Positions 35,155-57,130 of a DNA stretch of 64,000 nt are shown piece by piece. Every line of letters begins with the position of its first letter. The stretch's first letter is position 1. Below the pieces are notes generated by a model that did not search any database, was not told the DNA's origin, and saw nothing but the letters and a program-made list of their open reading frames with translations. The position numbers and the translations under genes are program-made. Source of the stretch: Desulforadius tongensis (GTDB taxonomy: Bacteria > Bacillota > Desulfotomaculia > Desulfotomaculales > Desulfohalotomaculaceae); NCBI RefSeq assembly GCF_016907915.1, contig NZ_JAFBCW010000011.1, positions 1 through 64,000 on the forward strand, read 5' to 3'.

Positions 35155-35639
35155 ACCGTTTCATAGGTTGATAATAATTTTACATGTAATATAAACGTTT
35201 TTATGAAATAATATTAAATATATATTAAATATATGTTAAAATTAACTTAAGAGCAATCAATGCTCATTCTGCTGCACAATTAGCTCTTTTATATTTGTCG
35301 AATGCATAAATATATTTTCGAATTAGCTTTATAAAATTTTAAATTAATAGCAGAGCTTTTGAAAAGTAAAATTTATTTTAGTTTAATATTCAGAAAAAGA
35401 GGATTTTTTCATTCGGTTGTCTAATTAGTTGGATGGTAGCCATGTTATGATGGCGGAACAGCGGGTTTAAGTAATCATAATTATACGCGGGAAGGAATGT
35501 GAAATAAATTTCTTTTTCTGAATAAAAATAAAATTTAAAATTAACTTTTAATTATCAGAATCGGACAAAAATTTGCTGCAAAGCAATAATCATTATAATG
35601 GCTATGCCATTAAAAATAAAGGCGGAGGTGGAAAATTTT
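35155..35639 (+). other. Long AT-rich leader of the hydrogenase operon
   Basis: 485 bases with no supported gene. AT-rich repeats (ATTAAATATATATTAAATATATG near 35213 are too low in complexity to interpret) and a GCCAT/ATGGC inverted repeat near 35439-35455. It must contain the promoter of hydA; no FNR, Rex or sigma-54 site fits well. Confidence 0.4.
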
Positions 35640-37193
35640 ATGGATAAGCAAAAGGCACGCAGTACAGAAATGACCAGGCGCGGCTTTCTCAAAATGTTCG
35701 GAAGCCTTGGCCTGGTTGGTGCCACAGCAACCCTGGCCGGCTGTTCCAAAGAGCCCATGGGTGGCAAGGGTTGGCTGCCGCAGCAGTATCAAGCAGCCAG
35801 TTCTTATCCGTCACAAGTGCGCGGTCGTGTACCCATCGACCCAAACAATCCATCTATCATGCGGGATGACGAAAAGTGCATCCTTTGCGGCCAATGCCTG
35901 GAGGTTTGTGAAAAGGTTCAAACTGTATTTGGCCATTACGAATTACCGGTTAAAGATGAAGTAATATGCGTAAACTGCGGCCAGTGCACTCTATGGTGCC
36001 CCACCGCTGCTATCACCGAAAAGGATGATACAGCCCGGGTACTGGAAGCAATTGAAGACCCAGACACTGTAGTGGTTGTTCAAACCGCACCCGCCACCAG
36101 GGTAGGTCTTGGTGAAGAGTTCGGCCTGCCGGCAGGCTCATGGGTAGAAGGTAAGCAGGTCGCCGCTCTTAAAAAACTGGGTTTTGACTATGTATTTGAC
36201 ACCAACTTCAGTGCTGACCTAACCATTATGGAGGAAGGTACCGAATTAATTAACCGGATAACCAAGAAGAGCAAGGCACCTCTACCGCAGTTTACCTCCT
36301 GCAGTCCCGGCTGGGTTAAATTCTGCGAGTATTATTACCCCGATCTGCTGGAACACATGTCTTCCGCCAAGTCACCCCAGCAAATGCTTGGCGCTTTAAT
36401 CAAGACATACTTTGCCAAAGAGAAAAATATCGATCCGAAGAAAATCTTCTCGGTATCAATAATGCCCTGTACAGCTAAAAAGTTTGAGTGTTCCCGCCCG
36501 GAAATGAATGATGCCGGTTTACACCACGGCGATGAAACAATGCGCGATGTGGATGCAGTTCTCACCGTCAGGGAATTAGCCCGGATGATTAAAAACAAAG
36601 GCATTGACCTGAACAAGCTGCCGGAGGAAAAATACGACCAGCTAATGGGCACGGGCTCAGGGGCAGGTTTAATCTTCGGTGCCACGGGCGGTGTTATGGA
36701 AGCTGCCGTTCGTACAGCCTATTTTGTACTCACCAAGCAGGATGTACCGGAAGGCCTGCTCAATCTGAAACCGGTACGGGGATTGGAAGGCGTAAAAGAA
36801 GCTTCCCTGGACATTCCCGGCGTGGGAACACTGAGAATTGCAGTGGCTCATGGCCTGAGCAATGCTCGTAAACTGATGGATGAAGTTCGCCGCGGCGAAT
36901 CTCCTTACCACTTTATTGAGATTATGTGCTGTCCCGGCGGGTGTATCAGCGGCGGCGGGCAGCCGCGTACCGCACTGCCCCCAAGCAACGAAGTGCGTGA
37001 AAAGCGTATTGCCAGCCTTTACGCCAAGGACGCTTCATATAAGCTGCGTTTAAGCCATGAAAACCCGGAAATTCTCGCTCTTTACGAAAAATATTTGGAA
37101 CATCCCATCAGCCATTTAGCTCATGAATTACTACATACAGAATATACAAGCCGGGGCGACAAGTTGACAGCCAAAGGTAGTAAATTAGGTTAA
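35640..37193 (+). CDS. Exported [FeFe] hydrogenase catalytic subunit with Tat signal
   Basis: A 517-aa protein. The N-terminus carries a twin-arginine signal (TRRGFLK, residues 12-18, then a hydrophobic core ending at AGC). Two 4Fe-4S sites follow (C80-C90, C110-C120), then the H-cluster motifs TSCSPGW (219), MPCTAKK (275) and MCCPGGCISGGG (429), all needed cysteines present, and a fused small-subunit-like tail (about 455-517). It is a catalytic group A type. With HybA-like and NrfD-like partners encoded next, it would oxidise or evolve H2 outside the membrane and exchange electrons with quinone. ATG at 35640 behind GGAGGTGG. Maturases are not in the window. Confidence 0.93.
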   Translation: MDKQKARSTEMTRRGFLKMFGSLGLVGATATLAGCSKEPMGGKGWLPQQYQAASSYPSQVRGRVPIDPNNPSIMRDDEKCILCGQCLEVCEKVQTVFGHYELPVKDEVICVNCGQCTLWCPTAAITEKDDTARVLEAIEDPDTVVVVQTAPATRVGLGEEFGLPAGSWVEGKQVAALKKLGFDYVFDTNFSADLTIMEEGTELINRITKKSKAPLPQFTSCSPGWVKFCEYYYPDLLEHMSSAKSPQQMLGALIKTYFAKEKNIDPKKIFSVSIMPCTAKKFECSRPEMNDAGLHHGDETMRDVDAVLTVRELARMIKNKGIDLNKLPEEKYDQLMGTGSGAGLIFGATGGVMEAAVRTAYFVLTKQDVPEGLLNLKPVRGLEGVKEASLDIPGVGTLRIAVAHGLSNARKLMDEVRRGESPYHFIEIMCCPGGCISGGGQPRTALPPSNEVREKRIASLYAKDASYKLRLSHENPEILALYEKYLEHPISHLAHELLHTEYTSRGDKLTAKGSKLG

Positions 37194-37219
37194 CAAGCAC
37201 CACTGGGAGGTGAAATTAC

Positions 37220-38002
37220 ATGAGTAAAGGTGTACTGGTTGATTTAACTAAGTGCATCGGCTGTGGTAGCTGTACCGTAGCCTGCAAATTATATAACGAT
37301 AATAAATTTGAAAAGGATAGTCCCGCTATCGGCGAAAATCCCAAGTTAACCGATGAAAACTGGACTATCGTTACCGCCAAGAAAACAGAGAAGGACGGCC
37401 AGCCCGTATGGCGTTATGTAAAACAGCAGTGCCTGCACTGTGAGCATCCAGCATGTGCATCCGCCTGCTTTGCCAAGGCATTCCAAAAAACAGAAGAAGG
37501 GCCTGTTATTTACTACCCGCACCTGTGCGTGGGCTGCCGTTACTGCATGCTGGCCTGTCCCTTCGATATTCCCAAGTATCAGTGGGAAAAATCATTCCCG
37601 CTGGTTACTAAGTGTCAAATGTGCTCGGGCAAGGTGGCTAAAGGAGAAGCCCCGGCATGTGTCAGCGTTTGTCCTACCAATGTAATGACATTTGGTGAGC
37701 GTGATGAAATTCTGGCTTTGGCCAAGAAAACCATCGAAAGTGACAGTAAATACGTTAAGCATATTTACGGTGAAAAAGAAGCCGGCGGTACAGACTGGAT
37801 TTATATTTCCGACGTGCCCTTTGAGCAGTTAGGCTTCCGTACCGATGTCACCACAACACCGCTGCCCGAATACAGTCACAGTTTCTTGAAATACACCCCG
37901 TATGTGATAGTTGGCTGGGGTTCATTGTTAACCGGTATGTATCTGTACACCAAGCGGCGTAATAAGATTGCCCAAGAGGAGAAAAAAGACGTACACCTGT
38001 AG
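37220..38002 (+). CDS. HybA-like 4x[4Fe-4S] electron transfer subunit
   Basis: A 260-aa protein with four cysteine groups (CIGCGSCTVAC, CLHCEHPACASAC, CVGCRYCMLAC, CQMC...CVSVCP) and one C-terminal membrane helix (YTPYVIVGWGSLLTGMYLY). It lacks a signal peptide, so it may be carried out folded with HydA by the Tat system. It conducts electrons between hydrogenase and the NrfD-like subunit. Confidence 0.92.
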   Translation: MSKGVLVDLTKCIGCGSCTVACKLYNDNKFEKDSPAIGENPKLTDENWTIVTAKKTEKDGQPVWRYVKQQCLHCEHPACASACFAKAFQKTEEGPVIYYPHLCVGCRYCMLACPFDIPKYQWEKSFPLVTKCQMCSGKVAKGEAPACVSVCPTNVMTFGERDEILALAKKTIESDSKYVKHIYGEKEAGGTDWIYISDVPFEQLGFRTDVTTTPLPEYSHSFLKYTPYVIVGWGSLLTGMYLYTKRRNKIAQEEKKDVHL

Positions 38003-38056
38003 TAGCCAACAGTCACAGTTAAATAATAAACCAGTTAATAAAAGGGGGTTATAATT

Positions 38057-39196
38057 TTGGCGGCTACTAATACTCAAAGTTGGAGTTTTCGCTTAACTCC
38101 GACCAGGGTTTTGCTATTTATCCTGGCTGGCATGGCTGCAGCCATTGCCTTATGGCGTTTAATCGTGGGCCTAGGGCCAACAACCAACCTCAATGACCAG
38201 TGGCCCTGGGGGTTGTGGATCGGTTTTGACGTGTTGACAGGTGTTGCTTTGGCCGGTGGTGGTTACAGTACAGCACTTATCGTACACATTTTACACATTA
38301 ATAAGTTTAATGAAATTGGTCGCAGTGCAATGTTAACCTCAATGCTCGGGTACTTACTGGTAATGGCCGGTTTGTTCCTGGATATCGGTCAATGGTTTAA
38401 CTTCTGGCGTCCCTTCGTATCTTGGGGCTACCACTCTGTGCTGTTCGAAGTATTCTGGTGCGTATCCTTATATACCACCATTCAGGTAATCGAGTTCGGT
38501 GAAATTCTTACCGAAAGAGTTGCCAAACCATGGCACAAATTTTTCAGAAAAATCATGCCGTTCCTGTTGATTGTAGGTGTGTTGCTGCCTACTATGCACC
38601 AGTCTTCACTGGGCGGACTGTACCTGATTGAAGTTGGTAAACTGCACCCGCTGTGGTGGTCACCATTTATCCCGCTGTTCTTCTTAATGTCTTCGTTCTT
38701 TGTGGGTCCGGCTATGGTGGCTGTGGAAACATCACTGGCCGGCAGGGCATACAACCACCAGGTTGACCTTAAGGTTCTGCGCGGGTTGGCTAAAATTGGC
38801 GGAACTTTAATGGTGATTTACCTGGCACTAAAAGCCATCGACTTCAGCAACCGCGACGCTTGGCAGTATGTATTTGCCGGCGGGCTGGAATCTAATATGT
38901 TCTTACTGGAAACCATCGGTGGCGTAATTATACCCTTGATTATACTCATCAGTCCCTGGGGTAAAACCAGAAGCGGTTTAGTAACCTATGGTGCATTAAC
39001 AGCTTTAGGTGTAGTTGTAAACCGTCTCAATGTGGTAATTACCGGTATGGTCAACTACTATGGTCCCGGTTATATTCCGGCCTGGACGGAAATTGTGGTT
39101 AGTGCCGGTCTGGTAGCAGGTGGTATATTGGCATACTGCTTCATTGTAGAAAACTTTAACATCCTGGGTCATCATGAAGAACACGAAGCGGCGTAA
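38057..39196 (+). CDS. NrfD/HybB-family integral membrane subunit
   Basis: A 379-aa polytopic protein of about 10 helices, family-typical DQWPWGLWIGFDVLTG and TMHQSSLGGLYL motifs. It binds quinone in relatives (HybB, PsrC). It would anchor the exported hydrogenase and link it to the quinone pool. TTG start behind AGGGGG. Confidence 0.92.
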   Translation: MAATNTQSWSFRLTPTRVLLFILAGMAAAIALWRLIVGLGPTTNLNDQWPWGLWIGFDVLTGVALAGGGYSTALIVHILHINKFNEIGRSAMLTSMLGYLLVMAGLFLDIGQWFNFWRPFVSWGYHSVLFEVFWCVSLYTTIQVIEFGEILTERVAKPWHKFFRKIMPFLLIVGVLLPTMHQSSLGGLYLIEVGKLHPLWWSPFIPLFFLMSSFFVGPAMVAVETSLAGRAYNHQVDLKVLRGLAKIGGTLMVIYLALKAIDFSNRDAWQYVFAGGLESNMFLLETIGGVIIPLIILISPWGKTRSGLVTYGALTALGVVVNRLNVVITGMVNYYGPGYIPAWTEIVVSAGLVAGGILAYCFIVENFNILGHHEEHEAA

Positions 39197-54693: not shown

Positions 54694-57096
54694 ATGGATG
54701 TGTTTAGTATGGATATACTTTATACCGATAACAAGCTTTGTGTGCAGTGTTATGCCTGTGTCAGAGTATGTCCGGTAAATGCCATATCCTTTCAAAACGG
54801 TAAAGCAACCATTGCCAAAGAAGACTGTATTTTATGCGGCAGCTGTGCTAAAGTTTGTTCCCAGGGTGCCAAGCTGCTGTTTAATGATGTTCCCATGGTA
54901 CAAAAATGGTTGGACCGTCAAGAAGAAACGGTAGCCATTGTGGCCCCCTCTTTTGCCGCTTCTTTCACCTGCAAACCCCGCCAATTAATTGGCGGGCTGC
55001 GCAGGCTGGGCTTTTCCAAAGTTTATGAAACTGCCTTTGGGGCAGAGATATGCGCCTACCAGTATCAAAAACTTCTGTCCTCCGGCCAATGCAGCACAAT
55101 CATCACTACCCCCTGCCCTTCCGTTGTTTTAATGGTAGAAAAACACTTTCCACAATTAATCAGCTGTTTGGCCCCGATAAAGTCTCCAATGATGATTACC
55201 GGTGAAGCAGCTAAAAAATTATACCCGCACTGCAAAACAGTGTTTATCGGACCCTGTATAGCCAAAAAAGCAGAAAGTGTCAATAAACACGCCGGTACTG
55301 CCATTGACGCGGTAATCACCTTTAACCAGTTAAAACAGTGGTTTAAAAGAGAAGAAATTATCCTGGAAAATATGCCCGAAGAAAACTGGGACTCCCCCGG
55401 TGCCAATACAGCCAGATTATTTCCCCTGGCGGGAGGGTTATTAAAAACGCTGGGTTTACACCGGGATGTGGGCTCCCTGGATGTCATTGAAGCCAACGGC
55501 CCGGCAAAGTGCAAAAGTATTTTGCGATCCATTAACAGCGGTTTTCTTACACCCCGAATCGTAGATTTGCTCTGCTGCGACGGCTGCATCGCCGGCAGGG
55601 AAATAGCCAGCAGCGACCTGTGCTTTGTAAAGTCTCAAAGAATAATTAATTACAGCAACGAAGAAAGAAAAAAGGGTGAATACAAATATCCCCGGGATTT
55701 TGCCGAACTGGCCCCCGATATAGACACCAGCCGTACCTTTGTCAATAAGCAGCGAATTAAAAAATTTTTTACCCGCCAGGAAATATGGGATGTATTGAAA
55801 AAAACCGGTAAGTACAGCCAAAAGGATCTGATAAACTGCGGTGCCTGCGGCTATAACTCATGCTGGGAAAAAGCCATTGCCGTACTGCAGGGTAAAGCAG
55901 ACATTCAAATGTGTTTACCCTTCTTATTAAAGCAGTACCAGGAAACCAGCAAACACATGGCTGCCATATACATGCTGAGCAGAAACTTAGAGTTCAAAGC
56001 GGCCACCGACAGTTTAACCGGCCTGTATAACCACAGAAAGTTTCAAGAAGAGCTGGATAAACAAATTAAAAAGGCCAAGGCAGCCAATCAAAGTTTTGCC
56101 CTTTTTATCATTGATATAGACAGCTTTAAACGGGTAAACGACTTGTACGGCCACCAGGTGGGAGATCAAATACTGCTGCAGGTTGCCGTCATGCTGAGGG
56201 AACTTTTTCCCAGCGGTTTTGTGGCCCGCTACGGCGGGGAAGAGTTTTCAGCCCTCCAGCCAAATGTGAGCCCCGAAGAGGCCCTGGCAATGGGCAGGCG
56301 TTTAAATCAAACGGTAAAAAACCGTTTTTACAAAATACAAAACAATAACATCAATATAAACCTGACTGTGTCAGTGGGGATAGCCTGTTTTCCCTTTAAC
56401 GCCACCAACAAGGATGATCTGCTCAAGCTGGCGGACTATGCCCTGTATAAAGCCAAACGCACCAAAGATACCGTTATACTTTATTCTTCCGTGCTGGATG
56501 AAATTTCACCTGGAGAACCAAGCTATACCGAAAACGATTTCAGCACCATTAAAACATTAAACATAGTAATCAACGCCAAAGATCATTACACCTATAAACA
56601 TTCCGAGCGGGTGGTTTACTACGCTGAAACTTTAGCCCGAAAGCTGGGCCTACCTGAAGAAGACATAAAGTATTTGAAGTACGGTGCCTTTCTACATGAT
56701 ATCGGAAAAATAAAAATAGATATGTCTATATTACAGAAACCCGGCCGGCTTACCGAGGAAGAATTCGAAAGAATTAAACAGCACCCTTTAATAGGAGCGG
56801 ATATTGTCAGGGAAATTCCCACCCTGCACAACATCATCCCGGTAATACTCTATCATCACGAGCGTTATGACGGAAAGGGTTATCCCTATGGAAAAAAAGG
56901 CAATGACATCCCACTGCTGGGCAGAATTGCATCAATAGCAGACAGTTTTGATGCCATGACCACCAAACGTCCCTATAAAAAAGCGCTTAATTATGACCAA
57001 GCGGTTAACGAGTTAATAAGAAACTCTGGATCCCAGTTTGATCCAGAGTTGGTAAAGGGGTTCCTATGCTGTGTCAAAAAGGTGGTGGAAGTATAA
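54694..57096 (+). CDS. Sensory [FeFe]-hydrogenase-like protein fused to GGDEF and HD-GYP domains
   Basis: An 800-aa soluble protein. Two 4Fe-4S sites (16-27, 45-55) precede an H-cluster domain of the HydS type: TTPCPS (138-143), GPCIAKK (186-192), CCDGCIAG (294-301). The H-cluster cysteines are present, but the proton-relay cysteine of catalytic enzymes is replaced (TPC for TSC), as in sensory proteins. Then a Fes-type 4Fe-4S domain (CGACGYNSC, 382-390, C407), a GGDEF domain with active RYGGEEF (512-518) and no RxxD I-site, and a C-terminal HD-GYP domain with HDIGK (668), HHE and DGKGYP. It would read H2 or redox state and set cyclic di-GMP. The start lacks a good ribosome site; ATG at 54709 is a second option. 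Confidence 0.9.
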   Translation: MDVFSMDILYTDNKLCVQCYACVRVCPVNAISFQNGKATIAKEDCILCGSCAKVCSQGAKLLFNDVPMVQKWLDRQEETVAIVAPSFAASFTCKPRQLIGGLRRLGFSKVYETAFGAEICAYQYQKLLSSGQCSTIITTPCPSVVLMVEKHFPQLISCLAPIKSPMMITGEAAKKLYPHCKTVFIGPCIAKKAESVNKHAGTAIDAVITFNQLKQWFKREEIILENMPEENWDSPGANTARLFPLAGGLLKTLGLHRDVGSLDVIEANGPAKCKSILRSINSGFLTPRIVDLLCCDGCIAGREIASSDLCFVKSQRIINYSNEERKKGEYKYPRDFAELAPDIDTSRTFVNKQRIKKFFTRQEIWDVLKKTGKYSQKDLINCGACGYNSCWEKAIAVLQGKADIQMCLPFLLKQYQETSKHMAAIYMLSRNLEFKAATDSLTGLYNHRKFQEELDKQIKKAKAANQSFALFIIDIDSFKRVNDLYGHQVGDQILLQVAVMLRELFPSGFVARYGGEEFSALQPNVSPEEALAMGRRLNQTVKNRFYKIQNNNININLTVSVGIACFPFNATNKDDLLKLADYALYKAKRTKDTVILYSSVLDEISPGEPSYTENDFSTIKTLNIVINAKDHYTYKHSERVVYYAETLARKLGLPEEDIKYLKYGAFLHDIGKIKIDMSILQKPGRLTEEEFERIKQHPLIGADIVREIPTLHNIIPVILYHHERYDGKGYPYGKKGNDIPLLGRIASIADSFDAMTTKRPYKKALNYDQAVNELIRNSGSQFDPELVKGFLCCVKKVVEV

Positions 57097-57104
57097 CCGG
57101 TTCA

Positions 57105-57130
57105 GGGTGCTGTTTTTACAGCACCCTTTT
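57105..57130. terminator. Terminator between sensor fusion and thrC
   Basis: Stem GGGTGCTGT/ACAGCACCC with TTTT loop and TTTT tail, placed between converging genes. Confidence 0.88.

Follow-up and report, generated by a model that had tools for sequence, protein, structure and literature searches.

Sensory [FeFe]-hydrogenases (HydS) form group C in HydDB, where all members are putative and are linked to a histidine kinase (C1), to chemotaxis (C2) or to a phosphatase (C3) (PMC5037454). A link between a hydrogenase and a diguanylate cyclase is listed there for [NiFe] group 2c only, and is again putative (PMC5037454). The group C (M2f) enzyme TmHydS has two N-terminal 4Fe-4S sites, conserved H-domain ligands and a lost proton-relay cysteine (PMC10055695), together with Gly at the position of CpI M353, a C-terminal Cx2Cx4Cx16C cluster and a PAS domain. 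This C-terminal cluster is the hallmark of group C/D HydS (PMC8163306). The group D (M2e) enzyme TamHydS has no PAS domain, carries three accessory clusters and Leu at CpI M497 (PMC8163306, PMC13104023), and ends after the C-terminal cluster; group D enzymes have Ser or Thr at CpI M353, Ser in TamHydS (PMC8163306). In the HydS literature cited here, no demonstrated signalling output was found for any HydS. Hydrogen sensing by these proteins has stayed open because kinase, phosphatase and MCP outputs are hard to read.

Here, we describe a gene in a 64,000-nucleotide stretch of the Desulforadius tongensis genome (the window) that joins a HydS module to both enzyme types of cyclic di-GMP turnover. 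In the open-access literature, no report was found of c-di-GMP enzymes in fusion with an [FeFe]-hydrogenase.

Architecture of the fusion protein

An earlier note, made from the DNA letters, had read this locus as one chain with a HydS-type H-domain, a GGDEF domain and an HD-GYP domain, an output that it considered unusual for a sensory hydrogenase. Pfam E-values and full-length orthologues in four genera rule out chance and bear out the single chain, and the kinase, chemotaxis and phosphatase outputs of HydDB group C agree with the second judgement (PMC5037454). The features are as follows.

54694..57096, plus strand: HydS-GGDEF-HD-GYP fusion gene, 800 codons (open reading frame, domain matches, orthologue starts)
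54739..54771, plus strand: first N-terminal 4Fe-4S site, C16/C19/C22/C26 (Fer4 matches; invariant in 94/94 HydS rows)
54826..54858, plus strand: second N-terminal 4Fe-4S site, C45/C48/C51/C55 (Fer4 matches, HydS alignment)
54925..55596, plus strand: [FeFe]-hydrogenase H-domain, residues 78-301 (PF02906 Fe_hyd_lg_C, E 1e-49; fold matches)
55105..55119, plus strand: L1, TTPCP, residues 138-142, with ligand C141; Pro140 takes the place of the relay Cys (CpI C299)
55246..55275, plus strand: L2, IGPCIAKKAE, with ligand C188, K191 and Gly186 at the CpI M353 position
55564..55596, plus strand: L3, DLLCCDGCIAG, residues 291-301, with ligands C295 and C298 (alignment)
55837..55914, plus strand: C-terminal 4Fe-4S site, Cx2Cx4Cx16C, C382/385/390/407 (PF04060 FeS, residues 380-409, E 9e-10)
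55915..56004, plus strand: linker helix, residues 408-437, joining the Fe-S site to GGDEF (AlphaFold model, alignment)
55999..56466, plus strand: GGDEF diguanylate cyclase domain, residues 436-591 (PF00990, E 4e-43; PleD-like alignment)
56233-56247, plus strand: GGEEF signature, residues 514-518
56557..57051, plus strand: HD-GYP phosphodiesterase domain, residues 622-786 (PF13487 HD_5, E 5e-41; PmGH and V-cGAP3 alignment), with the motifs HDIGK at residues 668-672 and HHERYDGKGYP at 721-731
57104..57127, plus strand: 10-bp perfect hairpin directly 3' of the fusion stop, before the convergent thrC (sequence)

The true start is likely the second ATG, at 54709, since this Met is where most orthologues start; it would give a protein of 795 aa. 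A terminator scan made no call at the 57104..57127 hairpin. The AlphaFold model computed from a 115-row alignment has a mean pLDDT of 92.7 and a continuous helix over residues 408-437, and supersedes a 6-row prediction (pLDDT 50.6). Its best PDB fold matches are [FeFe]-hydrogenases (E about 1e-19).

The number of Fe-S sites departs in part from the earlier proposal, which had placed three before the H-domain and one after it. The site after the H-domain is present (C382/385/390/407). Upstream, Pfam places Fer4 sites within residues 11-59, comprising the two at C16-C26 and C45-C55; a third site upstream of the H-domain was searched for in the fusion and was not found.

Distribution and origin

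Full-length orthologues, at 58-70% identity, occur in six of seven genomes of the family Desulfohalotomaculaceae, the window's own included, and in four of its five genera. A search for the same domain order, which the earlier note had suggested, places the fusion in this family and nowhere else in the sets covered. Among 113 genomes of the order, the full architecture is confined to the family. A sample of 399 genomes from the phylum gave a list of roughly 150 matches outside the family, none of which aligns well into GGDEF; the one reaching furthest ends at query residue 465. Among the best 80 of 574 GTDB relatives, GGDEF appears at two loci only, both in one Desulfotomaculum MAG (apparently genome G005); for the most part, the other outputs seen there are PAS domains, sigma-54 activators and histidine kinases. 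Long HydS proteins from elsewhere (780-1088 aa) were considered as further GGDEF fusions, but their outputs identify them as sigma-54 activators or PAS/GAF-histidine kinases.

Two side observations came from these searches. A second copy of the fusion, on contig 96 of G005 (L021/L028), is disrupted within the GGDEF domain and has Tyr in place of one 4Fe-4S cysteine. In Bacillota, HydS modules are also fused to sigma-54 activators consisting of AAA+ plus HTH (L074, L107, L108, L121, L140, L159-L165, L168, L169, L171, L173, L175, L176); these are possible one-protein H2-responsive transcription activators, a type that is not among HydDB classes C1-C3 (PMC5037454).

The linker between sensor and output has no indels across the six orthologues, at 40% identity, and shows a weak heptad pattern (p 0.04). 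Both features are as expected if the register of the helix matters. The lack of indels also bears on whether the fusion might be a product of read-through or assembly, with no joint function. The disrupted orthologous copy in G005 would fit such an origin, which is nevertheless extremely improbable given that the fusion is uninterrupted in six genomes of four genera with an indel-free linker. A chimera of assembly or similar accident is ruled out by this conservation across six genomes.

In the sister family f8, which the evidence suggests is Desulforamulus, the sensor half is present at 42-47% identity and is followed by a helical tail with no recognised domain. The sensor tree groups the fusions in a single clade (support 100), whose sister is that of f8 (support 100). 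The C-terminal half has its nearest relatives, at 45-49% identity, among membrane-type GGDEF-HD-GYP proteins from the same order (L053 and L068 are examples), which share its domain order. Where the fusion has HydS, these proteins have a hydrophobic input region of about 200 aa that apparently spans the membrane. One domain swap in the family ancestor would be the simplest history.

The HydS module

The earlier note had named an H-cluster region without conserved ligands on alignment as a finding that would refute it. Instead, C141, C188, C295, C298 and Lys191 are invariant in all 94 aligned HydS modules, as are the four C-terminal Fe-S cysteines; the eight N-terminal Fe-S cysteines are conserved in 92-94 of the 94. 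The absence of the proton-relay cysteine, also claimed at first reading, is confirmed by Pro140. This position is highly variable across the 94 modules. Work on TmHydS found Pro there in about 10% of sensory enzymes; loss of the cysteine does not abolish activity (PMC10055695).

The spacing of the L3 cysteines divides the sampled HydS. Every kinase, sigma-54 and f8-type HydS in the sample has Cx2C, as do five of six intact fusions, and Cx3C is found in 10/10 sampled PAS-only HydS. The window protein reads CCDGC, where the extra C294 could allow Cx3C besides Cx2C. We know of no characterised member of the Cx2C type, nor of any biochemical study of it. H-cluster assembly in this class is likely, as judged from sequence.

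Like TmHydS, the fusion has two N-terminal 4Fe-4S sites, intact H-domain ligands, no relay cysteine, Gly at CpI M353 and the Cx2Cx4Cx16C cluster; unlike TmHydS, it has Cx2C at L3, no PAS domain after the C-terminal cluster (Pfam) and GGDEF plus HD-GYP output in the same chain, which also separates it from the outputs of HydDB C1-C3 (PMC5037454). Like TamHydS, it has three accessory clusters, Leu at CpI M497 and no PAS, but it differs from group D in Gly186 and in continuing beyond the C-terminal cluster. Many other HydS relatives likewise pass straight into histidine kinase or sigma-54 domains. In the sensor tree, the fusion is nested among HydS with histidine kinase, sigma-54 and MCP outputs, in a sampled set that does not include TmHydS. 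The fusion probably functions as group C sensory hydrogenases do, with the same module but another output and no PAS domain.

The maturation genes bear on what the module senses. The hydG, hydE and hydF genes are clustered in the window's genome. Each of the six family genomes that carry the fusion has a HydG scoring above cut-off; the one lacking the fusion, a single case and a small genome, has no such match. If the module instead senses redox state (the ferredoxin pool), O2 or CO through its Fe-S sites or a modified cluster, the output would still be c-di-GMP. Low-turnover HydS could act as redox probes, and the Pro in place of the relay cysteine, the Cx2C of L3 and electron entry via two ferredoxin-like sites would all suit this role. 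We consider it rather unlikely, as a pure Fe-S sensor would not need the invariant C141, C188, K191, C295 and C298, and the fusion co-occurs with HydG. H2 is retained as the putative signal.

The output domains

The earlier note had described the GGDEF as active-looking and the HD-GYP as intact, and their residues agree. The GGDEF domain has GGEEF together with D474, N482 and D491, the metal and nucleotide residues; in the PleD-like alignment, its RxxD inhibitory site (I-site) is absent. The HD and HHExxDGxGYP motifs of the HD-GYP domain are complete by alignment, with one qualification: the third-metal Glu of PmGH is replaced by Tyr, as in V-cGAP3. This replacement suggests a two-metal site. 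The catalytic motifs of both domains are kept in the orthologues, with GGEEF reading AGEEF in one.

In some GGDEF-containing phosphodiesterases, the GGDEF domain is regulatory. By this precedent, one output domain alone could be catalytic in the cell and the other regulatory, for example a GTP-bound GGDEF activating the HD-GYP. The missing I-site and the AGEEF orthologue are consistent with this arrangement, to which we give perhaps one chance in four; conservation of GGEEF, D474, N482, D491 and every HD-GYP motif residue argues instead for two predicted catalytic activities.

The identity of the messenger can be considered in the same way. The best PDB match of the HD-GYP domain is the cGAMP phosphodiesterase V-cGAP3, so that another cyclic dinucleotide, such as 3'3'-cGAMP, might take the place of c-di-GMP. 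The Hypr cyclases that make cGAMP carry Ser where PleD has Asp. Here, Asp491 is Asp as in PleD, and a c-di-GMP-I riboswitch is predicted in the genome, making a messenger other than c-di-GMP quite improbable.

Genome context

The fusion gene stands alone beside the convergent thrC and does not adjoin a hydrogenase operon in its own genome. Of the five contexts read for the other full-length orthologues, four show the same solitary arrangement beside thrC. In G005 (L184:1232-5620), the fusion is followed 27 bp on by a HydS-MCP gene, a proximity suggesting that one control governs both the chemotaxis and the c-di-GMP output in that genome.

Nine H-domain proteins are encoded in the window's genome: four of group A, two group B-like, a HydS-PAS, a HydS-MCP and the fusion. 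The HydS-PAS gene adjoins genes for a SpoIIE-type phosphatase and HydABC-like genes. Elsewhere in the window, about 16 kb upstream of the fusion (35598-39196), lies an [FeFe]-hydrogenase of group A whose N-terminus is twin-arginine-like, together with a 4Fe-4S subunit and an NrfD-type membrane subunit.

Targets for c-di-GMP are present in the same genome. A YcgR-type PilZ gene lies inside the flagellar/chemotaxis operon. A c-di-GMP-I riboswitch (86 bits; L188:1011-1163, G000:C3:97410) precedes pilB (with an MshEN domain), pilT and pilC, and a strong terminator-like hairpin lies between the aptamer and pilB. By inspection, CUUAGG at the aptamer end is complementary to CCUAAG in the terminator, consistent with a switch that c-di-GMP would turn off. 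The number of such riboswitches varies within the genus, with 15 in G002 versus this one in the window's genome.

Proposed mechanism and its implications

Taken in aggregate, the data make it reasonably probable that the fusion is a cytoplasmic one-protein sensor-effector, responding to H2 or to an H2-poised redox state and acting on c-di-GMP. If so, signalling would involve: insertion of the H-cluster into the HydS module by HydEFG; H2 binding or oxidation, altering the H-cluster and the N-terminal clusters; a conformational change that travels via the C-terminal 4Fe-4S domain and the fixed-length 30-residue helix to GGDEF/HD-GYP; a shift in the balance of c-di-GMP synthesis and hydrolysis; and action of the messenger on two targets, the flagellar brake of YcgR type and the type IV pilus operon under riboswitch control. 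HydG co-occurrence within the family and the c-di-GMP targets in the genome add support to this H2/c-di-GMP reading.

For the coupling step, a conformational route would be favoured over electron transfer to the C-terminal cluster, because TamHydS changes secondary structure on H2 while its C-terminal cluster is not reduced (PMC13104023). Counting against the mechanism as a whole are the absence, from the HydS literature cited here, of a HydS with a demonstrated signalling output; the Cx2C of L3, which differs from the Cx3C of catalytic and PAS-type enzymes; the HD-GYP domain without its third-metal Glu; and the lack of an adjoining hydrogenase operon.

A parallel in output is [NiFe] group 2c, for which H2 control of c-di-GMP has likewise been proposed. 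The H-domain of the fusion is of the [FeFe] type, an unrelated metalloenzyme class, and HydDB gives 2c as a cyclase linkage, whereas the fusion has cyclase and phosphodiesterase in one chain (PMC5037454). The chances are about even that, in one soluble protein, H2 controls the making of c-di-GMP as well as its degradation, which would represent a fourth [FeFe] sensory output, with HydS taking the place of a membrane sensor and an H-cluster site of Cx2C spacing that has no characterised example.

A sensor and two assayable enzymes in one chain make H2 signal transduction testable in vitro with standard c-di-GMP assays. If the proposal is correct, H2, which serves as currency in communities that live in syntrophy or consume hydrogen, would be tied in a single step to the decision between a motile and an attached state, so that hydrogen may directly adjust how these bacteria move or attach.
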